NCBI RefSeq assembly: GCF_024300625.1
Contig: NZ_CP101322.1
Span: forward strand, 2,369,992-2,433,991
Direction of reading: 5' to 3'
Length of the DNA: 64,000 nucleotides
Source: Halovivax gelatinilyticus
GTDB lineage: Archaea > Halobacteriota > Halobacteria > Halobacteriales > Natrialbaceae
The notes beneath the pieces are model-generated. The model was given only the letters and a program-made list of their open reading frames with translations. It was not told where the DNA came from and searched no databases. The number at the start of each line of letters is the position of its first letter. Position 1 is the first letter of the stretch. Below, in pieces: positions 2,897-52,032 of this stretch. The position numbers and the translations under genes are program-made.

Positions 2897-4909
2897 TCAC
2901 TCGTCGATGCCGGGAAGCGTGACGTAGAACGTCGCGCCTTCGCCGGGCTCGGAGTCGACCCAGATGTCACCGCCGTGGCGCTCGATGATCCGTTCACAGA
3001 GGGCCAGTCCGATACCGGACCCAGCGTGCTCGCTGCGGCTGTGAAGTCGCTGGAACACCTCGAACACGACCGCCTGATCGTCGGGGTCGATGCCGATCCC
3101 CTCGTCGGCGACCGAGACGATCCAGTCGGTTCCGGTTTCGGCCGCGAGCGCGGGCTCGAGACGCTCGGCTTCGACGTGAATCGTCGGCGGTTCGTCGCCG
3201 CTGTACTCGATGGCGTTCTCGAAGAGGTTCTGGAACACCTGTCGAAGCTGACCCGGGTCGCCTTCGACGGTGGGGAGCGAGTCGACGGTAACGGACGCGT
3301 CAGTCCGATCGATGCATACCGTTAGATCGGAGCGGACCGCAGCGACGAGCGTCTCGAGGTCGACCGGTTCGAGCGGCTCGCCCTGGGTCTCGACGCGCGA
3401 GTACTCGAGCAGGCCCCGAATCATCTCCCGCATGCGGTCGGCGCCGTCGACGGCGAACCCGATGAACTCCTCGCCGTCTTCGTCGAGTTCGTCGGCGTAC
3501 CGCCGATCCAACAGCTGGAGGTACGACGAGACCATCCGTAGCGGCTCTTGCAGGTCGTGGGAGGCCGCGTAGGCGAACTGTTCGAGCCGTTCGTTCGACT
3601 GTTCGAGCTGGTAGACGAGGTTCTCCAGTCGACGTTCGCGCAGTTTGTGCGCCGTTATGTCCTGGACCGCACCTCTTAGCGTGACGACTTCGCCGTCTTC
3701 GACGTCCGTAACGCCCTGAATGCGAAGCCACCGTATCTCGTTCGTCCGAGTTTCGATCCGCGCTTCGGTGTCGAACGGTTCGCGGGCGTCGATCGCCGTC
3801 TCGATCGCCGAGCGAACCCGCTCGCGATCCGCCTCGTGGTACATCTCCAGGATGTCCTCGAGCGGCGGCTCCTCGTCTCCGTCGATCCCGAGGAGCTCGA
3901 AGATGTGGTCGGTCCAGAAGACGTCCATCGTCTCTGGATCGATCTCCCAGCCGCCGACGTCGGCGATGTGCTCGGTCTGTTCGAAGAGATCGAGGGTTCG
4001 TTTGAGTTCGCGCTCTCGATCCGTGCGCTCGGTAACGTCGCGATCGGAGACGATGATCGAAACGACGTCACCGTCGTCGTCGGTGACCGGTCTGAAAAAT
4101 CCCTCCAGCGTGTAGGTATCGCCGTTCGAGCGGGTGAGGTCGGCATCGAACTCGACGTACTCGCCGGCCGCCGCCCGCTTCGTCCAGCACTTGACGGCGT
4201 CGGCGTGATCGTCTCGCTCGCCCCACCACGGCGTCTCCCAGAACGGCTGGCCGACGACGTCCGCCAGTTCGGCGTCGACGTACTTCATCGCCGTCTCGTT
4301 AATGTCTCGGACCGTTCCGTCGGGTTCGAGTAACCCGACGAGGATGTTCGGGTCCTCGAAGATCGCGTCGAACCGTCGCTCGGTCTGGACGTTTTCGATC
4401 GCGCTCGCGAGTACGTTCGCGACGTTTTTTACGAACGTCGCGTCCCGGTCGGTGAACGACTTTCGGTCGGTCGAGTGGGTCCCCAGGATGCCCCACGGCT
4501 CCTCGACCGAGCCGATGATGACGCTGATCCCGGCGCGAACGTCGTGATCCGTGAGCAGTTCCGGCCCCGAAAAGCGCGTTTCGGTCCGGAGATCCTCGAC
4601 GATCACCGGCGCCTCGGTGAGCAGGGTGTAGCCCGCTTGCGAGTCGCGGTCGGTGGGTACCGACGCACTTCCGACGAGACCCTCCTGCCAGCCCACTCCC
4701 TGTCTGAGGAGGACGCTATCACCGTCCGGCGTCAATTCCAGAACCTTCGCGTACTCGGTGTCGAGCACCTCGGTGATAACGGCACAGGCGTCCGCCATTA
4801 GCTGATCGAGATCGTCCGTTTCGAGCGCCCGTTGACCGAGTTCTGCGACGACTGATTGCTGTCTCACCTCCGTTCTGAGATCGGAACTCTCGCCTGGTGG
4901 TGAACCCAT
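2897..4909 (-). CDS. GAF-PAS-PAS sensor histidine kinase
   Basis: 670 residues from the ATG at 4909 (MGSPPGESSDLRTEVR). An ATG 17 codons upstream is possible but adds a basic, untypical stretch. Order of domains: GAF about 20-180, a PAS domain about 185-300, a second PAS with PAC segment about 305-425, then a dimerisation/phosphoacceptor domain with ASHDLQEPLRMV and the phospho-His at about 451. The ATPase domain has the N box (LFENAIEYS), G1 (ADEGIGID) and G2 (GSGIGLAL). No membrane helix is visible, so it is probably a soluble cytoplasmic sensor. The GAF could bind a ligand or chromophore. No response regulator is adjacent; the HTH_10 regulator at 5148 is divergent and may be functionally linked. 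Confidence 0.93.
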   Translation of the reverse strand: MGSPPGESSDLRTEVRQQSVVAELGQRALETDDLDQLMADACAVITEVLDTEYAKVLELTPDGDSVLLRQGVGWQEGLVGSASVPTDRDSQAGYTLLTEAPVIVEDLRTETRFSGPELLTDHDVRAGISVIIGSVEEPWGILGTHSTDRKSFTDRDATFVKNVANVLASAIENVQTERRFDAIFEDPNILVGLLEPDGTVRDINETAMKYVDAELADVVGQPFWETPWWGERDDHADAVKCWTKRAAAGEYVEFDADLTRSNGDTYTLEGFFRPVTDDDGDVVSIIVSDRDVTERTDRERELKRTLDLFEQTEHIADVGGWEIDPETMDVFWTDHIFELLGIDGDEEPPLEDILEMYHEADRERVRSAIETAIDAREPFDTEARIETRTNEIRWLRIQGVTDVEDGEVVTLRGAVQDITAHKLRERRLENLVYQLEQSNERLEQFAYAASHDLQEPLRMVSSYLQLLDRRYADELDEDGEEFIGFAVDGADRMREMIRGLLEYSRVETQGEPLEPVDLETLVAAVRSDLTVCIDRTDASVTVDSLPTVEGDPGQLRQVFQNLFENAIEYSGDEPPTIHVEAERLEPALAAETGTDWIVSVADEGIGIDPDDQAVVFEVFQRLHSRSEHAGSGIGLALCERIIERHGGDIWVDSEPGEGATFYVTLPGIDE

Positions 4910-5147
4910 CTGATCAGGACAACGGGTGAGAAACGGGTAAACCCTGCTGTTCACGTACACGATCCGTGATAGGACGGATGGCTGACCCGCCGTGGACGCT
5001 GGGCGAATCGGCCCCCGCTCGAGCCGGATCCCGCTCGGTCCTCGATCGCGGTCGACGTCGGTTCGGTCGAACGGATCCGACCGGTGGCGTCGTTGCCCCG
5101 GCGAATGTCTCCCGTCCTATTACCCTGCCGGCCACCCAGTAGTAGGT

Positions 5148-5807
5148 ATGAGCGTCATCGCGGAGATCGCAGTTCCGGCGGACGCGCTCGCGCTTGCCGC
5201 GCTGTTCGAGGCGGACGGCGACGCGACCCTCCAGGTCGAACGCCTCGCGAGTCACAGCCGGAAGTGGGTGATGCCGGCCGTCTGGCTCAGTGCGTCCGAC
5301 GTCCGATCGGCCGCGGACCTGATCGAGGCGGACTCCGCCGTCGAGGCGGTCGAACTGGTGGACGTCGAGGGGCCGAACGCGTTCGCCCTCGTCCAGTGGG
5401 GAGCGGAGATTCAGCGCCTGGTCGACGCGGTCCTGGACCGACACGGCGTCGTCGTCGAGGCCAGTGCGGCGGGCGGGACGTGGTACCTGAAATTGAAATT
5501 CGTCGAGCGAACCGCCCTTACTGATTTTCAAGCCTACACTAGCGAACGCGATCTTTCGGTGGACCTTCGACGCCTCGCGGACGCGACGGCCGCTCCCGAC
5601 GAGGCGTACGACCTGACGGCCGAACAGCGCGAGACGCTTTTACTCGCCCACCGGATGGGGTACTTCGACGTCCCGCGCGAGGCGCAGATCGAGGATCTCG
5701 CGGCGGCACTCGACATCTCGACCAACTCCGTCTCGGAACGGCTCCGCCGGGCGACGAAGGCCCTCACCGAGAACACGATCGGTGACCAGGCAGGTCGACG
5801 AGCGTGA
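5148..5807 (+). CDS. HTH_10 (bacterio-opsin activator type) regulator
   Basis: 219 residues starting MSVIAEIAVPADALALAALF at the ATG at 5148. The N-terminal ~150 residues form the sensory beta-alpha domain typical of haloarchaeal Bat-like regulators (SRKWVMPAVWLSASD). The C-terminus has the HTH_10 helix-turn-helix: LTAEQRETLLLAHRMGYFDV, then AALDISTNSVSERLRRATKA as the recognition region. The family regulates transcription, but targets cannot be named. It diverges from the histidine kinase with a ~240-base shared upstream region. A GTG-started reading frame overlaps its stop codon. Confidence 0.9.
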   Translation: MSVIAEIAVPADALALAALFEADGDATLQVERLASHSRKWVMPAVWLSASDVRSAADLIEADSAVEAVELVDVEGPNAFALVQWGAEIQRLVDAVLDRHGVVVEASAAGGTWYLKLKFVERTALTDFQAYTSERDLSVDLRRLADATAAPDEAYDLTAEQRETLLLAHRMGYFDVPREAQIEDLAAALDISTNSVSERLRRATKALTENTIGDQAGRRA

Positions 5808-6793: not shown

Positions 6794-6885
6794 CCGCCGG
6801 CGTGGGGAGTCGAGCACCCGTCGACTCCGACCCGGTTTCCGCTCGATCGGGAAACCGTCTTGTCGATCCGGCGTGACCCGGAGGT

Positions 6886-7077
6886 ATGGACCTGTCACCG
6901 ATACGCCTCCGGTATCACCTCGTCAATACGACGATCGTTATCGCCGTTCTGCTGGCGTACCAGTCCTCTCGCTCTTCGGTCGACGTGGTACTGTTGCTCG
7001 CGGTCGCGGTCATCTACCTCGCGATCGTGATCGCGATCGACCTCGTTCGACCGCTCGAATCGAACGAGGAGACCTAG
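6886..7077 (+). CDS. 63-residue two-helix membrane protein, paralogue of 2610
   Basis: MDLSPIRLRYHLVNTTIVIA onward, 63 residues with two membrane segments (TTIVIAVLLAYQ and VVLLLAVAVIYLAIVIAIDL). Same length, same MDL start and same helix-turn-helix-tail layout as the protein at 2610. Together they bracket the sensory block of histidine kinase and two regulators. Function unknown. Confidence 0.75.
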   Translation: MDLSPIRLRYHLVNTTIVIAVLLAYQSSRSSVDVVLLLAVAVIYLAIVIAIDLVRPLESNEET

Positions 7078-7108
7078 CCGCGGAGGAGACGTAAACGCGA
7101 GAGACGCG

Positions 7109-7151
7109 TTCTCGTCGCGGTAGGGCCCCATTCTCGTTGCGGTAGGGGCCC
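7109..7151. repeat. 22-bp tandem duplication in spacer
   Basis: TTCTCGTCGCGGTAGGGCCC is followed after two bases by TTCTCGTTGCGGTAGGGGCC (copies at 7109 and 7131). They differ at two positions in 20. This lies in the non-coding gap 7078-7321. Confidence 0.8.
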
Positions 7152-7288
7152 GTCCTCGGCGCAGTTTTGGAAATCACGTCGGCATCCGTATCGGTGCTGT
7201 CGACGCCCGTCGTCCGATCTGTCGTCGCTGGCCGAGTTAGCCGGCCATTACTAGCCGATGAATAGATTAATTAAGACGAATAAACAAA

Positions 7289-7300
7289 AGATATCTATAC
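7289..7300 (+). promoter_or_regulatory. TATA box of lipoprotein gene
   Basis: AGATATCTATAC is centred about 26 bases before the ATG at 7322, in an AT-rich block (7258-7300). The spacing fits a leaderless haloarchaeal transcript and favours 7322 over the earlier ATG at 7307. Confidence 0.55.
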
Positions 7301-7321
7301 CGTCGAGTGAAGTATTTACTC

Positions 7322-7996
7322 ATGCAACGGACTGTGAGTCGTCGTCGACTCCTCGCGCTCGCAGCGATTTCCGGGGTTGTCGGGGTCGCCGGCTGCACCG
7401 GCGGAGACGATGGATCGGACAGTGGAGCCGATGGCGAATCAGACAGCGGGGACGGGGGATCGGCTGATGGCGATGACGAATCGGACGCCAGTGACGACAC
7501 CGGCGGGCTCTCACTCGATGAACCGTCAGAGACCGAACTCGTCGAGCGCGAGTCGAGTCCCGATGACCCGCTGAGTCCCGGTGAACCGGCGACGTTCGGC
7601 TCCAGAGAGCTACTCGTTCACGACATTCTCGTCGACGACGACGCCGTCTCCGCTCACGTCGATGCCGCCGACGGAAACGAACCACCGGACGACGGCGCGA
7701 TGTACGTGCTCGTCGACCTCGAAGTCCGCGTCCCCGGAGCCGAATTCCCTGTCGAGGACCTCGGCCTTTCGGTGGCCGTCGTCACCGACGGTGCAACCTA
7801 CGATCCGGCCGGTGACGCCGCCTGTTACGGCGAGGAGACGGCCCAGCTCGGCACCACCGACGATCACGAACACCACCGAGAGACGCGCTGTCTCGCCGTC
7901 CCTGACGGTACGAACGAGTCGGGCGTCCTTCGGGTCGTCTCGACGGAAGACGACGCCGAACACTTCTTTTCGCTCCCGGTCGATCGGTCGCTCTGA
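7322..7996 (+). CDS. Tat-exported lipoprotein, DUF4352-like
   Basis: 224 residues. MQRTVSRRRLLALAAISGVV carries a twin-arginine signal and ends at lipobox VAGC, so the mature protein is probably lipid-anchored on the outer face of the membrane. A Gly/Asp/Ser-rich linker follows to about residue 60. The rest is a beta-rich domain (PATFGSRELLVHDILVDDDA, AMYVLVDLEVRVPG), which resembles DUF4352-type extracellular immunoglobulin-like domains. Two cysteines (DAACYGEET and ETRCLAVP) could form a disulfide. Role unknown. Confidence 0.8.
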   Translation: MQRTVSRRRLLALAAISGVVGVAGCTGGDDGSDSGADGESDSGDGGSADGDDESDASDDTGGLSLDEPSETELVERESSPDDPLSPGEPATFGSRELLVHDILVDDDAVSAHVDAADGNEPPDDGAMYVLVDLEVRVPGAEFPVEDLGLSVAVVTDGATYDPAGDAACYGEETAQLGTTDDHEHHRETRCLAVPDGTNESGVLRVVSTEDDAEHFFSLPVDRSL

Positions 7997-8026
7997 CCGG
8001 GTCGATATTCACCGAGCGGGTCGATT

Positions 8027-8998
8027 CTACTGCGCGTTCACACCCTCGCGACGGGCCGCTTCGATCGACTCGTAGAGCGCGTCGGCGTCGTCGATGACGG
8101 CGCGATGACAGCGGATATCGGTCCAGCGGGGCCGTTCGATCCGGAGTTCGTCGTCTGAGAGCGTCACGTCACCGATCGACGTCCACGGGTGGAACCGTTT
8201 GTGATAGCCGCTGTGTACGACGAGACCGGCGTCGTGGACGGCGAGCGTCGGAAGTCCGTCCGTGTCGATCCGTCCGTCCGTTCGCCACTCGCCGCCCAGC
8301 ACCGACCGCCGCGTGCGATCGGGCAGGTATCGAGCGAGTCGACTCTCGCCGTGATCGAGACGAACGGCGGCCCGCGACCACCAGGCCATCGCGATCGAGT
8401 ACAGCGCCATGGCCGCGACCCAGAATCCCACGCCGCCGAGGGCGCCGTCCGCGGAGACGAACTGGACGCCGCCGATGGCGACGAAGACGAGTCCAACGAT
8501 CGTCCAGTTTCGCGCCTGGGTGGTCGAGAACAGCGGTGCGTTCGCGATCGGGTCGTCGTCGACGGCCGCTCGGGCGTATCGTGTCCGGGCCATCGGCGTC
8601 GCCCCGAGGGCGACGAGCCCGGTGCCGACGGCCCCGATGGCGGTTCCGACGGCCGCGTGCCCGGGAATCGTAGACGTCGACGATACGAGGAGCGTCGCAA
8701 TGGCGAATCCGGCGGGAACCAGGTACAGCGCACCCAGCCACGGCCAGCCCTGGCCGAGCCGCTCTGCGATTCCGCGGGTGCGCCGAATCGCGATCGCGCC
8801 GGCGACGAGGCCGGCCGTGAACGCCGTGGTTACGCTCGTCGCGATGGCGGCTCCGGAGAGTCCGGCGGCCGCGCCGACGGCGATGACGATGGCGGTGACG
8901 GCGACGCCGACGTACACCCCGGCGACGGCTACGGCGCCGACGTCCGGTGGCTCGACCGACGTCACGCTCTCGATCGAACTGGCCGGTGCGTATCCCAT
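8027..8998 (-). CDS. polytopic membrane protein with C-terminal PH-like region
   Basis: 323 residues. About eight hydrophobic segments occupy residues 20-205 (VAVAGVYVGVAVTAIVIAVG, LGALYLVPAGFAIATLLVSS and others). A soluble C-terminal domain of about 110 residues follows (TLAVHDAGLVVHSGYHKRFH, WTSIGDVTLSDDELRIER), which reads like a bacterial PH/YdbT-type beta domain. The stop lies just downstream of the convergent lipoprotein gene. I do not recognise a named family. Confidence 0.8.
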   Translation of the reverse strand: MGYAPASSIESVTSVEPPDVGAVAVAGVYVGVAVTAIVIAVGAAAGLSGAAIATSVTTAFTAGLVAGAIAIRRTRGIAERLGQGWPWLGALYLVPAGFAIATLLVSSTSTIPGHAAVGTAIGAVGTGLVALGATPMARTRYARAAVDDDPIANAPLFSTTQARNWTIVGLVFVAIGGVQFVSADGALGGVGFWVAAMALYSIAMAWWSRAAVRLDHGESRLARYLPDRTRRSVLGGEWRTDGRIDTDGLPTLAVHDAGLVVHSGYHKRFHPWTSIGDVTLSDDELRIERPRWTDIRCHRAVIDDADALYESIEAARREGVNAQ

Positions 8999-40960: not shown

Positions 40961-41554
40961 TCAGTCGTCGAGGGGGACGAAGTCGGTATCAGTGAGCCGA
41001 CTCCCCCGGAGGTGGTAGGCGTGTGCGAGCGCCGATACCGTAAACGTACAGAAGATGATGACGGAGACGGCCGCCCACCCGACGGCGAACGGGTAGATAT
41101 CCAAGTAGGTCGCCAGCATCAACGCGCCGCTCAACGCGGTCACGCCCAGGTAGTGGACGTGCCACGGAATGTCGTGACGTGGAACGTACTCGAGATAGAG
41201 TTGGACCTGATTCGCCCGGTCGGTCAATCGCATCACGCCTCGCGATTTGTCGAACTCGACGATACCCAGCTCGTCGAGTTTCGGGAGGTGGGTCTGACGG
41301 AGCGCCGTGTACACCGACTTTCTGTCCTTGTACGCGACCTGGCCCTCCAGGTCCGGATTTTCACTTTTTGCGACGTACTCGACGACATCTCTGAGGCTGA
41401 CCAGTTCCTCGTCCGTCTCTTTGAGATAGCGGATGATGCATATACGCCGATGGTTGCTGAGGACGTCGAAGATCTGGTCGCGACTGATCTCTGCGTCCGA
41501 ATTCGATGCGCCAAACGTTTCAGGTAGTTCTGTCGTCCGTGAATTTACGCCCAT
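40961..41554 (-). CDS. DUF7344-type winged helix with two membrane helices
   Basis: 197 residues from the ATG at 41554 (MGVNSRTTELPETFGASNSD). Winged helix: ISRDQIFDVLSNHRRICIIR, then YKDRKSVYTALRQTHLPKLD and a wing at IVEFDKSRGVMRL. Two C-terminal membrane segments (VHYLGVTALSGALMLATYLD and AAVSVIIFCTFTVSALAHAY) would tether it to the membrane. It is a close relative of the gene at 51403, which also has two membrane helices. The pair brackets the signal peptidase and TasA-like locus. Confidence 0.85.
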   Translation of the reverse strand: MGVNSRTTELPETFGASNSDAEISRDQIFDVLSNHRRICIIRYLKETDEELVSLRDVVEYVAKSENPDLEGQVAYKDRKSVYTALRQTHLPKLDELGIVEFDKSRGVMRLTDRANQVQLYLEYVPRHDIPWHVHYLGVTALSGALMLATYLDIYPFAVGWAAVSVIIFCTFTVSALAHAYHLRGSRLTDTDFVPLDD

Positions 41555-42231
41555 ATCTCCCCCGTTTTCCCACTTCAACCGCGATGTGGCTTCTGATTGT
41601 GGCGATGACGGGCACAGACGATCTGGATTCGACGATCCGAACCCAGCCGCCCATCGTCACCGTATTTTCAACCAGTGCGAGCACAACCACAACACAGGAT
41701 AAATTAAATACATTCTCTTTGTGGCTAAGATTGTACAAACTGAACGTCGTCAGGTTCATATTGACCGTCGTTTCACCCGTGAACGATCGAAACTGCCCCG
41801 GACTGAGGTTTCTGTTTCCCGGCCCGTGACCGCGATGACTCCGGATCACTCGACTATTCGATACAACTGCTCGGCAGTGTCCGATAACTATCCGCTGCTT
41901 CGGTTGCTTGTTCGACATCTCCGTACTCCCACGTGACGTCGGCGTACCGTTCCGAGTAGGAGCGTATTCAGACAGTGATCCTCATCGATATATAATATTA
42001 TCTACCTTATGGGCAATTAATGGAGAATTTCAAGCTAAAAAAGTCGCTGAACGTAGCCAACCGCGTATCGGCTGGTCGTATGTTCGGCCCAGAATCTCGT
42101 ACCCGTCGTGAACTGTCGGATGTGCTTAAATCCTGGATACGGCATGGTCACTATCGAGTGAAGGGGGTTGTCCGGTCTGGATACTCGGTGGCACGGCCGC
42201 CGAGTGACGCCTCATCCCGACACCTGAGACG
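41555..42231. other. AT-rich gap upstream of signal peptidase
   Basis: 677 bases. It contains AT-rich patches at 41698-41712 (GATAAATTAAATACA) and 41985-42000, one weak ORF at 42020, and no confident gene. The lower GC compared with flanks suggests regulatory sequence or acquired DNA. Confidence 0.5.
41989..41999 (+). promoter_or_regulatory. TATA box upstream of sipW-like operon
   Basis: TATATAATATT is centred about 26 bases before the ATG at 42020, the normal distance for a leaderless haloarchaeal start. It is the strongest TATA-like element in this part of the window. A second weaker one (CTTAAAT near 42124) lies closer to the signal peptidase gene. Confidence 0.55.
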
Positions 42232-42235
42232 ATGA
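42020..42235 (+). CDS. doubtful 71-residue basic ORF coupled to sipW
   Basis: Opens MENFKLKKSLNVANRVSAGR. Its TGA overlaps the signal peptidase ATG (ATGA), and a good TATA box precedes it by ~26 bases. The protein would be Arg/Lys-rich and not acidic, which is unusual for a haloarchaeon. It could be an untranslated leader rather than a gene. Confidence 0.25.
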   Translation: MENFKLKKSLNVANRVSAGRMFGPESRTRRELSDVLKSWIRHGHYRVKGVVRSGYSVARPPSDASSRHLRR

Positions 42236-43383
42236 CTATCAAGACTGGGGTGACGTACGCGGCGGGAGTGATCGGCGCTATCGTAGTCATCTCGCTCGTC
42301 CTCGGAATGCTCCTCGGCCAGCCGGTGTTGTTCGCCTACGTCGAGACCGGGAGCATGGAGCCGACGCTCTCGGCCGGTGACGGCTACGTCGCGATCCCGG
42401 CCCCGATAGCAAGCGACGTCGAGACGGGCGATGTCGTCGCGTTCGAAGCCGAGTCCGTTCACGGTGGCGAGTTGACGACTCACCGCGTCGTCGACGAGCG
42501 CGAGCGAGGATACGTCACGCAGGGAGACGCCAATCCGTTCATCGATCAGAGTCAGGGCGAACCGCCCCTGACCGACGGGCAGATCCACGCCGTCGCGTTG
42601 CAGGTAAACGGCGAGGTCGTAGCCGTCCCCCACATGGGAACGGTCGCGATGGGGATCGATTCCGGGTTCGATCGCGTAGAGAGCCTGGTCTTCGGGACGC
42701 TCGGTGGCGATCGGTTCGGGTCGGGATCGATGACGTACCTGTTGTTCGGCGTGGGAGTACTCCTTCTCGCCAGCAGTGTGGTCGGTGGGCCAAATCGAGA
42801 ACGCCAAGGGTCGCGCTCGGGAGCGCGGACTCGGGAGGATTCAGTCGACTCGCGAGTGTTGCTCGCCGGCTGTCTCGTCCTGCTGTGTCTGGCCGCTACC
42901 GTGGCGATGGTGGTTCCGGCCGGCGGCGAACATTACGGCATCGTCAGTACCGAGGGCAACTCCTCGAACCCGACGGTCGTCCCGGTCGGCGAGTCCGACG
43001 ACTTCGACTACGAGATCCACAACGGCGGATTCGTTCCGACCGTCTCGTATCTCTCCGCGGAAACGAACGGTATCGACCTCGAACCCGAGCGGATCAGGCT
43101 CGCTCGCGGTGAGTCCGAGAACGTCTCCGTCACCGTCTACGCCGACGACGAGACGGGATACCACGTCGAATCGAGCCGCGAGTACCGGTACCTCGTCGTC
43201 CTCCCGCCCGTCGTCATCGATTCGCTCTACTCGATTCACCCCTGGCTGCCCTCCCTCGCGATCTACGCGACTATCTCGACGCCCGTCTGGCTCGCCTGGA
43301 GACGGTTTTCCGGGCCGAGCGATCGGATCCGAACCCGATCACGCCCCCGATCCGGCCCCCGATTCAACTGGTTACACCCATGA
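42232..43383 (+). CDS. SipW-like signal peptidase with extra membrane-anchored domain
   Basis: 383 residues. Signal peptidase core: membrane helix (VIGAIVVISLVLGMLLG), catalytic Ser VETGSMEPTL (S41), His instead of Lys at TTHRVVDE (H84), and TQGDANPF (D99). The Ser/His pair is typical of archaeal, ER and SipW-type enzymes. After the core come two further membrane segments (SMTYLLFGVGVLLLASSVVG, LAGCLVLLCLAATVAMVVPA), an external beta-sandwich-like domain (~235-330) and a last helix near the C-terminus. Neighbouring genes encode proteins with TasA/SipW-type signals, the likely substrates. Confidence 0.85.
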   Translation: MTIKTGVTYAAGVIGAIVVISLVLGMLLGQPVLFAYVETGSMEPTLSAGDGYVAIPAPIASDVETGDVVAFEAESVHGGELTTHRVVDERERGYVTQGDANPFIDQSQGEPPLTDGQIHAVALQVNGEVVAVPHMGTVAMGIDSGFDRVESLVFGTLGGDRFGSGSMTYLLFGVGVLLLASSVVGGPNRERQGSRSGARTREDSVDSRVLLAGCLVLLCLAATVAMVVPAGGEHYGIVSTEGNSSNPTVVPVGESDDFDYEIHNGGFVPTVSYLSAETNGIDLEPERIRLARGESENVSVTVYADDETGYHVESSREYRYLVVLPPVVIDSLYSIHPWLPSLAIYATISTPVWLAWRRFSGPSDRIRTRSRPRSGPRFNWLHP

Positions 43384-45386: not shown

Positions 45387-47054
45387 ATGCAACGACGAAA
45401 ATTCCTGATCGGGGTGGGATCGGCTTCTATCGGTGGAAGCGCCATCGTCGGATCGGGCGCGTTCAGCAGAGTCGAATCGGATCGAGCGGTGACAATTCAG
45501 GTCGCCGAGGACCCGGATGCGTATCTCGGTCTCGACGAGTGTGACAGCCTCCACGGCGACAACTACGTCGACATCGACGACAACGGGCACCTGTACGTCG
45601 ACATTTCGGAGAATCCGAACGGCGGTGAGGGTGTCAACTCGAACTCCCGAACGTGGTTCCACAACGTCTTCGAGCTGTGTAACCACGGGAAGGAGGACGC
45701 CTGCATCTGGATCGACCGGCCGGACGAGTGGCCGGTCGTCGACGAGGGTCCCTACGAGGGCGAACCGCGCGTCGACTTCTACCTCGGTGACGACGACGAG
45801 CGGTCGATTCTGGGCGAGGAGAACGCCGTCGAGGTGGAACTGGGCGAGTGTCACTGTATCGGCATCCGAACGATCACGCACGGGATCGACGCGAACGATC
45901 CGGCGGCGCTGCTAGACGAGATCGACGACACCATAACGATCGTCGCCGACGTCGGCGGCGACTGTGGCGACGCTCCGCCGGAGTGCGTCGACCCGGACGA
46001 GGAGACCTGGTCCGACGTCGTCGACGAGGAAGAAGGCGGCGGACCGGTCGTTCTCATGGGCCTCGACTCCGAACTCGGTGCCGGTGGTTCCGGACACGGG
46101 ACGCCGGAGGAGCACGCTGATATGGTCGAGTCCATCCTCGACGACGTGACGAACGGGGGCGAGGGTATTCTCGTCCTCGGCGGCCAGATCGGTCCGTCGA
46201 GTAACGTCGACGACTACTGGGAGGGAGACGTCGGCAACGCGTCGAACGTCGACCAGCACGTCACGTTCGTCACCGACGAGGCCGAGATCCGAACCGTCGA
46301 CTTCGACGGCTACGCCATGATCGGCGTCGTCAGCAGCACTCACCAGATCAGTCACGGACTTACGAACGACCAAAACGACGCGCTCATCGACCGGGCCGAC
46401 GACATCGCCGACTTCGTCAACGACGGCGGCGGTCTCCTCGGCAAGACCCAGGAGGACCTCGACGAGCCGTGGGCGTACGTCGATCCGTTCGGCGAGTTCG
46501 AAAACCGCGAGATGGGGTGGGATCAGTACAGCTCCGTCGAAGTCACGCAGGCCGGCCTCGACATGGGACTCACGCAGTCGGGAATGAGCGGCTGGTGTTG
46601 CTATCACGAGACGTTCCCCGAGTTCCCGGAGTTCTTCGACGTCTTACTCACGCGCGATGAACCCGGCCTCGGTGACGGCGAAGCGGGTGCCATCGGCGGC
46701 AGCACGGTCGTGATTCCGCGGATCGTCTCGCTCGAGGTCTCGGGGCCGTCGAACGTGGAACTCGGCGACGCGCAGTCGTTCGACGTCACGCTCTCGAACG
46801 AGGGCGACACGTCCGAAGGAGACGTCGAGTTCGTCGTCGACGATCCGAACGGGTTGCTCGCCGACGACACGCTTCCGGACGCACCGTTCGAACTCGACGC
46901 GGGCGACGAGGTGAATTACGAACTAACCCTCGAACCGACCGACGCTGCCACCGAACACGTCGATCTCTCCATCGTGCGCGCTGACGATGGCGAGGAGATC
47001 ACGTCGGTCACCGTCGAGATCACCGGCATTCCGACCGACCCGGGCGTCTGCTGA
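45387..47054 (+). CDS. TasA/camelysin-like secreted protein with amidotransferase-like and Ig-like domains
   Basis: 555 residues. Signal: MQRRKFLIGVGSASIGGSAI then VGSGAFS, close to TasA/camelysin signals for SipW, with mature sequence from about FSRVESDRAVTIQV. The fibre-like domain (about 27-190) has GVNSNS (82-87), a CNHGKEDACIWI motif and repeated Cys pairs. It is followed by an amidotransferase-like alpha/beta domain (about 219-425, VVLMGLDSELGAGG, DNA ILVLGGQIGPSS-encoding, ADDIADFVNDGGGLLGK). A C-terminal Ig/CARDB-like domain (about 445-555, GDAQSFDVTLSNEGDTSEGD) ends it. The amidotransferase-like region shows no clear catalytic Cys-His pair, so it is likely structural. No membrane anchor. 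Confidence 0.82.
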   Translation: MQRRKFLIGVGSASIGGSAIVGSGAFSRVESDRAVTIQVAEDPDAYLGLDECDSLHGDNYVDIDDNGHLYVDISENPNGGEGVNSNSRTWFHNVFELCNHGKEDACIWIDRPDEWPVVDEGPYEGEPRVDFYLGDDDERSILGEENAVEVELGECHCIGIRTITHGIDANDPAALLDEIDDTITIVADVGGDCGDAPPECVDPDEETWSDVVDEEEGGGPVVLMGLDSELGAGGSGHGTPEEHADMVESILDDVTNGGEGILVLGGQIGPSSNVDDYWEGDVGNASNVDQHVTFVTDEAEIRTVDFDGYAMIGVVSSTHQISHGLTNDQNDALIDRADDIADFVNDGGGLLGKTQEDLDEPWAYVDPFGEFENREMGWDQYSSVEVTQAGLDMGLTQSGMSGWCCYHETFPEFPEFFDVLLTRDEPGLGDGEAGAIGGSTVVIPRIVSLEVSGPSNVELGDAQSFDVTLSNEGDTSEGDVEFVVDDPNGLLADDTLPDAPFELDAGDEVNYELTLEPTDAATEHVDLSIVRADDGEEITSVTVEITGIPTDPGVC

Positions 47055-47505: not shown

Positions 47506-47748
47506 GTGTTCGTCTGTTCTGAATGTGAGTCGGCTCAGTTTCTCCAGATCGTCGAAAGCGCGATCGAGTTCGACACCGCTGGAATTCGATCGATCGACGA
47601 GTCCTACCAGTGTACGTTCTGTGGCGAGCGCGGACGATACACCGACGACGGTGACGCAGAATCCGTGAGCGGGTCGATCCGTCGACGCAACTCCCAGCCA
47701 CGGACCACGGGCCAGCACGCTTCAGCCGGCGATCGTCCGGCGGAGTAA
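47506..47748 (+). CDS. small zinc-ribbon protein
   Basis: 80 residues from a GTG at 47506 (VFVCSECESAQFLQIVESAI). Two CxxC pairs (C4/C7 and C36/C39) frame a short beta domain, as in haloarchaeal single-ribbon proteins. A polar tail follows (RRRNSQPRTTGQHASAGDRP). Likely cytoplasmic; it sits among TasA-like genes but has no signal. Function unknown. Confidence 0.6.
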   Translation: MFVCSECESAQFLQIVESAIEFDTAGIRSIDESYQCTFCGERGRYTDDGDAESVSGSIRRRNSQPRTTGQHASAGDRPAE

Positions 47749-50088: not shown

Positions 50089-51027
50089 ATGAAACGACGA
50101 ACATTCGTGCTGGGAATGGGAACGGCATCGATCGGGGGCAGTCTCGTCCTCGGGTCGGGCGCGTACTCGCAGGTGAACGCGAGGCGCGACGTCTCGATCG
50201 AGACGGTCGGTGACGACGATGCCTACCTTCGATTGCAGTACAACGACGATATCGACTTCGAGTGTGAGACGGTCGAGACGATACTCTGGGTGACGAATCA
50301 ACTCAAAGCACCGATCGACGAACTCGGTTTCGACGTCGTGGGGACGGACCCGGAGATCGCCGTCGAGGTCGTCGACACCACCGACTCGATCGCCGTCGGC
50401 GAAACGGGCGAGATCGTCGCGGAACTCACCTGCGTCGGCGGCGAGGGGGATCGCACCGTCAACTTCGAAATCGAAGTTCGGGGCGAAGACCTCGGCGTCG
50501 ATGCCCATCGGACCGACGAGATCGCCCTCTCGTGTCACTGTCCGGGAGAAACTGCCTGGGCGCTGCTCGAAGATGCGACCGGATCGACCGACCCTGCACG
50601 CCACCGACTCAACGAGATCCCCGAAATCCGGACCAATCGCTGGGGCTGGTACCTCCCGTACGAATTAGCTGCCGGGCCGGTCACTGCCCAGCTGTGGGCC
50701 GGTGCCGGACGGAACGAACTCGATCGGGGATCCGAAACCGGTTCCGTCACACTCGACGACGACGGAGACGTGCTGTCCGTCTCGGTGTCGTCGCTCGACT
50801 CGTCGGTGATCGATCGCAGTCACTGTTACGTCGGTCCGGACACAGACGGACTTCGAGAGCGTAACGCCGCGCCCGGTCTGTTCGAGTACGACAGCGACAG
50901 CCTCGCCTACGACCAGCAGACGGAAACGTACGAGATTCCCACGAGCGATATCACGGACGGACTCGCCGTCGGGGATTCCCTCGTCGTCGCGTTGCACGCC
51001 GAGGTGTTCGAATACGGCGCCGACTGA
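50089..51027 (+). CDS. divergent TasA/camelysin-like secreted protein
   Basis: 312 residues. Signal MKRRTFVLGMGTASIGGSLV then LGSGAYSQVNARRDVSIE, matching the others in the RR, the G-x-G-x-S core and G(S/T)GA(F/Y)S. The mature N-terminal part is shorter (VTNQLKAPIDELGFDVVG) and lacks the GVNSNS and CN-x-GK motifs. A cysteine-rich middle (ALSCHCPGETA) and a C-terminal beta region (RWGWYLPYELAAGPVTAQLW) follow. It probably uses the same signal peptidase but is the most diverged member. Confidence 0.72.
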   Translation: MKRRTFVLGMGTASIGGSLVLGSGAYSQVNARRDVSIETVGDDDAYLRLQYNDDIDFECETVETILWVTNQLKAPIDELGFDVVGTDPEIAVEVVDTTDSIAVGETGEIVAELTCVGGEGDRTVNFEIEVRGEDLGVDAHRTDEIALSCHCPGETAWALLEDATGSTDPARHRLNEIPEIRTNRWGWYLPYELAAGPVTAQLWAGAGRNELDRGSETGSVTLDDDGDVLSVSVSSLDSSVIDRSHCYVGPDTDGLRERNAAPGLFEYDSDSLAYDQQTETYEIPTSDITDGLAVGDSLVVALHAEVFEYGAD

Positions 51028-51308: not shown

Positions 51309-51337
51309 ACTTACCTGGGGGTAAGTGCCCTACTTAC
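51309..51337. promoter_or_regulatory. three ACTTAC half-sites, inverted and direct
   Basis: ACTTAC at 51309, its reverse complement GTAAGT at 51321 and ACTTAC again at 51332. The first two form a hairpin with a six-base loop. Spacing of 11-12 bases puts the sites roughly one helix turn apart. Confidence 0.5.
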
Positions 51338-51402
51338 TCGACACATACCTTGAATTTATGTATCACCCATTCGTTCTATTCGACTGCTCGGGTGCCGTGA
51401 TA

Positions 51403-52032
51403 ATGGGAACGAAGGCAGTACTGAAAGACGGAAACGCGGTCACGGGAGAGCCGACCCCGAGGACCGGGGAATCGATCACCGACCGACCGATCGACCGGCC
51501 GCTGGACGTCGATCGGCTTTACGACGTACTGGCGAATCAGCGCCGGCGGTTTGCGCTGTACTATCTGAAACGGCATCCGGAGGGCGTTTCGATCGGCGAG
51601 TTGACCGAACAGGTTGCCGCCTGGGAGGTCGGTGCCACGCCGGCGGAGGTCACGCCGGACCAGCGAAAGCGCGTCTACACGGCCCTCCAGCAGTCACACC
51701 TCCCGGCGCTCGAATCGGCCTCGATCGTCACCTACGACGAAGAGCGACGGATCGTCGAACCGACCGAGGCCCTCGCGTCGATCGAGTGCTATCCGATGTC
51801 CGATCGGTCCGATTTCGACGCGTGGTCGCGGTGGTACCTCGGCGTCACGGCTCTCTCGAGCGCCGTCGTCTCGCTCGCGTGGCTGGGACTCTGGCCGATC
51901 TCGATCCTCTCTCCGCTGGTCATCGCGACGGGCATTCTCGTGGCGTTCGCGACGCTCGTGGTGACACACTGGTACGCGACCGAACACCGATCGTCGTCGA
52001 CCGACGCGCGACCGCCGGAACTCGACGAGTGA
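51403..52032 (+). CDS. DUF7344-type winged helix with two membrane helices
   Basis: 209 residues from the ATG at 51403 (MGTKAVLKDGNAVTGEPTPR). Winged helix: VDRLYDVLANQRRRFALYYL, then DQRKRVYTALQQSHLPALES and a wing at IVTYDEERRIVEPTE. Two C-terminal membrane segments (LGVTALSSAVVSLAWLGLWP, SPLVIATGILVAFATLVVTH). Related to the gene at 40961, sharing RK-VYTAL-Q-(T/S)HLP-L and WYLGVTALS against HYLGVTALS. Probably a membrane-tethered regulator at the right end of the TasA-like locus. Confidence 0.86.
   Translation: MGTKAVLKDGNAVTGEPTPRTGESITDRPIDRPLDVDRLYDVLANQRRRFALYYLKRHPEGVSIGELTEQVAAWEVGATPAEVTPDQRKRVYTALQQSHLPALESASIVTYDEERRIVEPTEALASIECYPMSDRSDFDAWSRWYLGVTALSSAVVSLAWLGLWPISILSPLVIATGILVAFATLVVTHWYATEHRSSSTDARPPELDE

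Follow-up and report, generated by a model that had tools for sequence, protein, structure and literature searches.

A fimbrial-stem protein of Halovivax gelatinilyticus carrying an unnamed head domain, and evidence for a modular scheme of heads and stems in Tat-fimbria-like clusters

Introduction

What is the role of a protein of the haloarchaeon Halovivax gelatinilyticus that begins as a fimbrial subunit would and then continues with two further domains, one of them without a name? The gene in question lies in a stretch of 64,000 nucleotides, here called the window, to which all coordinates refer unless another locus is named. Fimbriae exported by the Tat pathway (Tat-fimbriae) have been described only recently. 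The haloarchaeal Tat-fimbria set, tafi, includes TafA, TafC, TafE and TafF (Galeva et al. 2025, iScience 28:111793, as cited in PMC12687288), and Bacillus TasA and the archaeal bundling pili are donor-strand fibres (PMC9674648).

Results

An intact gene encodes a protein of three parts

The open reading frame at 45387-47054 (+) runs intact from ATG to stop over 555 codons, and its translation contains the motifs VVLMGLDSELGAGG and FVNDGGGLLGK that an earlier sequence-only reading had quoted from it. It is a gene and a chance ORF is ruled out, because a congener (G208) has an orthologue, likewise built of stem, middle domain and C-terminal domain, at the same place and in the same gene order, and because the differences between the two heads concentrate at third codon positions (38, 28 and 73 differences at codon positions 1, 2 and 3 of the middle domain). 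Identity to this orthologue is 61% in the stem, 77% in the middle domain and 54% in the C-terminal domain. The N-terminal 195 residues or so are paralogous to the products of two adjacent genes (56% and 51% identity), and a linker (residues 196-216) separates the stem from the middle domain (Table 1).

Table 1. Genes of the cluster and parts of the fusion gene, in window coordinates
Feature	Start	End	Strand	Evidence
Signal peptidase I, archaeal/SipW type, with C-terminal extension	42232	43383	+	TIGR02228 50.5 bits (cut-off 51.85); SipW 1.2e-05
DUF5305 membrane protein, start approximate	43400	44929	+	Pfam PF17231, E 6.9e-51
Fusion protein: Tat signal peptide, residues 1-27, MQRRKFLIGVGSASIGGSAIVGSGAFS, RR-x-F motif	45387	45467	+	Read off the translation
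Fusion protein: TafE-like/DUF1102 fimbrial stem domain, residues 28-195	45468	45971	+	NF052522, PF06510, PDB 9p0a_C
Fusion protein: middle head domain, residues 217-441, unnamed	46035	46709	+	Conserved in 14 sequences; stem-less occurrences
Fusion protein: C-terminal Ig/CARDB-like beta-sandwich, residues 442-555, and stop	46710	47054	+	AlphaFold, VIA-align, CARDB subthreshold
Stem-only paralogue, 201 aa, no C-terminal extension	48024	48629	+	TafE-like, E 5.4e-23
Stem paralogue, 365 aa, its unnamed head unlike that of the fusion protein	48656	49753	+	TafE-like, E 1.3e-19
TafC-like paralogue, 312 aa	50089	51027	+	TafC 5.2e-12, TafE 4.8e-13; both far under curated cut-offs

The stem is related to Taf proteins and lies in a tafi-like cluster

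The NCBIfam model of TafE (NF052522) matches residues 1-161 with an E-value of 3.1e-22 and 79.2 bits, under its curated cut-off of 155, and that of TafA (NF052520) gives 31.7 bits, under a cut-off of 190; across the whole Halovivax genome, no gene reaches either cut-off. Pfam DUF1102 (PF06510), over residues 59-106, exceeds its gathering score (24.3 bits with respect to 22.2). When a profile of six stems was compared with the PDB, one solved structure was matched, chain C of 9p0a, deposited as 'Pilin' (E 3.1e-18), and the same entry was found with the fusion protein as single-sequence query (E 1.2e-12). The alignments of signal and stem to TafE and to 9p0a both begin at residue 1. TasA and camelysin models gave no sequence match to the stem, which in the AlphaFold whole-protein model is strand-rich at low confidence. 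Because of the TafE, DUF1102 and 9p0a matches, the N-terminal part is, by homology, a fimbrial stem, Taf-related but distinct from the TafE equivalog. This agrees with the earlier description of a TasA/Taf-type fimbrial domain adjoining a signal peptidase gene, the latter being found at 42232-43383, where Pfam Peptidase_S26 exceeds its cut-off.

The signal peptidase and DUF5305 genes stand upstream of the fusion gene, and three further stem-bearing genes stand downstream. On this gene content (signal peptidase, DUF5305, four stem genes), the segment 42232-51027 is a tafi-like cluster; counting the signal peptidase in the definition of a Tat-fimbria cluster is our own reading. Stem paralogues with Tat signals are thus grouped with a signal peptidase, and the grouping is kept in relatives; the DUF5305 gene adjoins stem genes also in G208, G045, G046, G254 and G284. 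The head-less paralogue is a candidate shaft or adapter subunit, and the 172-aa extension of the paralogue that follows it is unrelated to the extension of the fusion protein. DUF7344 genes, possibly regulators of the cluster, lie on either side of it, at 40961-41578 (-) and 51325-52032 (+). An 80-aa ORF (47506-47748, +), placed after the fusion gene and before the stem-only paralogue, carries two CxxC pairs, zinc-ribbon-like, and has no match in Pfam.

The middle domain occurs with and without the stem

Neither the middle domain (about residues 217-441) nor its 13 relatives match any family of Pfam or NCBIfam. The domain is also found without the stem, in other secreted or surface proteins of haloarchaea and Nitriliruptoria: near the C-terminal end of Tat-signal proteins of about 1,360 residues in Natrarchaeobius chitinivorans and relatives; directly after a Tat signal and followed by the sandwich; preceding PKD domains on plasmid pHME505 of Haloferax mediterranei; and in three genomes of the bacterial class Nitriliruptoria, with SLH (one case) or Ig-like domains. 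These stem-less occurrences mark the middle region as a separate domain, as the sequence-only reading had supposed. In the bacterial genome G470 (class of Nitriliruptorales MAG), a surface protein of 1601 residues containing the domain (L100 1441-6246, +) also has an HExxHxxGxxH motif and three S-layer homology repeats, and a transfer between archaea and bacteria living in hypersaline habitats is probable. Viral contigs and phages were searched for relatives of the domain and none was found; designed SAKe proteins in the PDB (E about 1e-3) matched over a low-complexity start, taken as chance.

Among 391 sampled Halobacteria genomes, 15 gave matches to the middle domain, of which three weak ones were put down to chance and 12 have the domain; a family-wide profile search added one stem-less case (G404). 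The fusion to a stem was found in six of the 391 (H. gelatinilyticus itself, G208, G045, G046, G254 and G283), from two genera of one family, and all six fusion genes adjoin other stem genes, in support of the earlier reading. The whole cluster accompanies the fusion in G208, and parts of it adjoin the fusion in G045, G046, G254 and G283. The domain combination was not found in the domain libraries searched; the earlier reading knew of no described TasA-family member with it. In another haloarchaeal family (G284; L033 1524-8299, +), the middle domain and sandwich form an ORF of their own, perhaps a truncated gene, with no evident signal peptide. This ORF adjoins genes for a signal peptidase, a DUF5305 protein, TasA-like proteins and a laminin-G protein.

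These distributions bear on whether the protein enters a fibre at all. It could instead be monomeric or S-layer-associated, the DUF1102/TafE-like part serving only for export and anchoring, as would fit stem scores below the curated Taf cut-offs and the other head-bearing proteins, which are stem-less surface proteins. We consider this unlikely, however, because its gene stays linked in relatives to those for a signal peptidase, DUF5305 and several stems, a head-less one included, and because the stem resembles a pilin of solved structure.

The middle domain has conserved polar residues and an uncertain fold

In 14 aligned sequences, the middle domain has in common G-P, G-x-D-x-E, HG, G-(I/V)-L-V-x-G, W, GG-x-L, Q, CC-x-H, P and GG. 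In the fusion protein, E229, H237, W278, Q355, C404-C405 and H407 are invariant positions and D227 is nearly so. The conserved polar residues (D227, E229, H237, S316, Q355, CC404-405 and H407) mostly come after predicted strands, whose positions are of low confidence, and this placement, in the model, resembles that in a binding pocket. AlphaFold gave no confident model of the domain alone (three input sequences, pLDDT 32), and in the whole-protein model the region has an alternating strand/helix pattern at low confidence.

The domain had been said to resemble ThuA-type and class I amidotransferase domains. Its profile scores 23.2 with haloarchaeal ThuA, above 100 of 100 column shuffles (best 21.5) over 13 columns only, and 21.5 with DUF4350, above 98 of 100 shuffles with only 12-13 columns aligned; both alignments land on one helix-GGG-strand element, 'FVxxGGGLL'. 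The positive control, ThuA with DUF4350, itself scores only 26.2. Single-sequence alignments of the domain to ThuA and DUF4350 gave no signal, and no member of the 14 matches Pfam ThuA (PF06283) at E-values up to 10. Class I amidotransferases (PF00117) score 18.6, within the shuffled range, and their catalytic Cys, present in 25 of 25 amidotransferases compared (GVCLGHQ, G-x-C-x-G elbow), has no conserved counterpart in the 14 head sequences, in which the sole conserved Cys is the CCxH pair near the end. The ThuA side of the earlier claim thus keeps a weak similarity at one motif, whereas membership in the class I amidotransferases is not borne out, and from these profiles a ThuA- or amidotransferase-like fold has an almost even chance of being correct.

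Could the head be a class I amidotransferase/ThuA-type enzyme, one acting on sugars or hydrolysing amides for instance, which the stem holds at the cell surface? The profile similarity at the helix-GGG-strand element and several invariant polar residues would suit such a role; we nevertheless judge it improbable, since the nucleophile is missing, the conserved Cys forms only a vicinal pair, and no enzyme family of Pfam matches the domain. A degenerate ureohydrolase (arginase/agmatinase), suggested by an agmatinase ORF (E 5.6e-4 with the domain, score 33 with its profile), is refuted at the profile level as a single chance-level match and can practically be dismissed: the arginase profile (PF00491) scores 16.8, within a shuffled range of up to 22.3, and two equally strong matches from the same search, at loci L037 and L038, fell on implausible ORFs unlike the domain and were discarded.

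A C-terminal sandwich completes the head

In the AlphaFold whole-protein model, residues 442-555 form a beta-sandwich (ten-residue blocks from 451 to 550 mostly at pLDDT 53-78). Foldseek and VIA-align on this model were informative for residues 442-555 only, where VIA-align matched alpha-2-macroglobulin Ig-like domains at Z 10.9 (110 residues). The Ig/CARDB-like domain proposed earlier was in this way recovered, CARDB (PF07705) itself being subthreshold (E 0.052, 14.2 bits, gathering score 22.7). Most stem-less homologues likewise have the sandwich behind their middle domain, and for this reason we treat the two as one head.

Heads and stems have different histories

The stem sample comprised 194 genomes and the fusion loci and is partly biased towards the fusion; in it, 38 of 65 stem ORFs have a C-terminal extension of at least 60 residues past the stem, falling into 20 groups unrelated by BLAST. 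As some of the short extensions may be divergent stem ends, a reasonable count is about 15-20 unrelated groups. Heads named by Pfam are VWA (L103), laminin-G (L117) and a right-handed beta-helix (L108), and the extensions at L029 and L030 are, by eye, beta-propeller-like. In the VWA case (L103 1969-3531, -, in G111), the head on a TafE-like stem is a von Willebrand factor A domain. The laminin-G-headed stem protein also matches TafC positions 149-363, so that a headed stem is already present in the described tafi set. The L108 protein (1275-2468, -, in G160) matches the product of 50089-51027 over its whole length, C-terminal part included, at 32% identity, which suggests that a TafE-like stem (L108) and a TafC-like one have a head in common.

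A single clade stays compatible with the head tree of the five distinct fusion proteins (p-AU 0.075) and is rejected for their stems (p-AU 2.5e-9). In the stem tree, the Halovivax fusion stem clusters with those of G045 and G046, that of G208 pairs with its adjacent paralogue, and that of G283 joins, with weaker support (93/96), a protein from another family that has a VWA head. By these trees, fusion-gene stems have been exchanged, their single origin being rejected, and as the histories of heads and stems differ, both can be regarded as evolutionary modules. Consistent with this, the DNA of the fusion stem and the adjacent stem in G208 is 88-100%, mostly 98-100%, identical over nt 101-550 of the ORF, with respect to 48-66% past nt 550 and 52-72% immediately before the start. 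The tract of about 450 nt, in two neighbouring genes of L024 (G208:C1:1384000-1399000; genes at 4324-5424 and 6875-8548, minus strand), appears recent and gene-conversion-like and ends at the stem/head boundary. In the same gene pair of the Halovivax window, no conversion-like tract was found, identity being 58-78% within the stem and junction. On these comparisons, the fusion architecture exemplifies a general modular scheme, which the earlier reading had overlooked.

Discussion

The product of 45387-47054 is probably a minor, head-bearing subunit of a Tat-exported, tafi-like fimbria, with an interchangeable head that would bind a ligand. Read directly from sequence are the three parts, the cluster membership, the stem-less heads, the variety of heads per stem type and the exchange of stems. 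As its signal suggests, the N-terminal stem would be exported folded via Tat, and the signal would be removed by the adjacent SipW-type signal peptidase, as linkage and the TasA/SipW precedent indicate. Its freed N-terminus may then let the stem enter a TasA-type thread, probably through donor-strand exchange, as in TasA (PMC9674648). Domain order and head variety point to the middle and Ig-like domains as a head displayed outward, from a position that could be at the tip or lateral in the fibre, and the invariant polar residues suggest that this head would bind a ligand. Fibre formation in H. gelatinilyticus is proposed only by analogy, because no gene of the genome reaches the TafE/TafA cut-offs and the stem scores well below them. 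That the protein is a fibre tip, an adhesin or a unit for ligand sensing, as proposed earlier, is plausible; the many alternative heads on the same stem lend this comparative support.

Heads may swap between stems where the two join, by recombination or gene conversion, and one fimbrial scaffold would in this manner present many binding functions. A broader reading, which we put forward tentatively as somewhat short of an even prospect, is that Tat-fimbriae are a modular, recombining display system with swappable heads, in which conversion keeps neighbouring stems alike, and that the head is an undescribed family with a conserved ligand/metal pocket, common to hypersaline archaea and actinobacteria. 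Within this tentative reading, D-x-E, HG and CCxH would be the predicted ligand or metal pocket of the new family. Should the stems prove to be a shared scaffold for exchangeable heads, it is in the heads that haloarchaeal adhesion and cell recognition, and possibly the binding of viruses, should first be sought; the stem would then be a display system for folded proteins that functions in high salt. The middle domain is in any case a concrete unclassified domain family worth structural work.

The fold of residues 442-555 is that of the CARDB/Ig-like sandwich domains, the CARDB match staying below the Pfam cut-off. With ThuA (PF06283), DUF4350 (PF14258) and the class I amidotransferase-like folds, the middle domain possibly has one helix-GGG-strand element in common, but it differs from them in having no Pfam match, a similarity of 12-13 columns and no amidotransferase nucleophile. 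We know of no TasA with a head like that of the fusion protein. The likeness to TasA lies in export, which here too would be served by a dedicated SipW-type signal peptidase, and the likeness to archaeal pili in a stem homologous to the sequence deposited as 'Pilin' (PDB 9p0a). With the tafi set, the cluster has in common the Tat signal, a homologous N-terminal stem and several stem paralogues per cluster, and the NCBIfam TafC model too has a LamG-like C-terminal region. Unlike the tafi proteins, those of the window score far under the curated TafA, TafC and TafE cut-offs, and the head combination of the fusion protein is absent from every Taf model. In conclusion, the principle of a fimbrial stem with a C-terminal binding domain is already known from TafC, and what is new is the unnamed head family, the evidence for stem exchange and the variety of heads.
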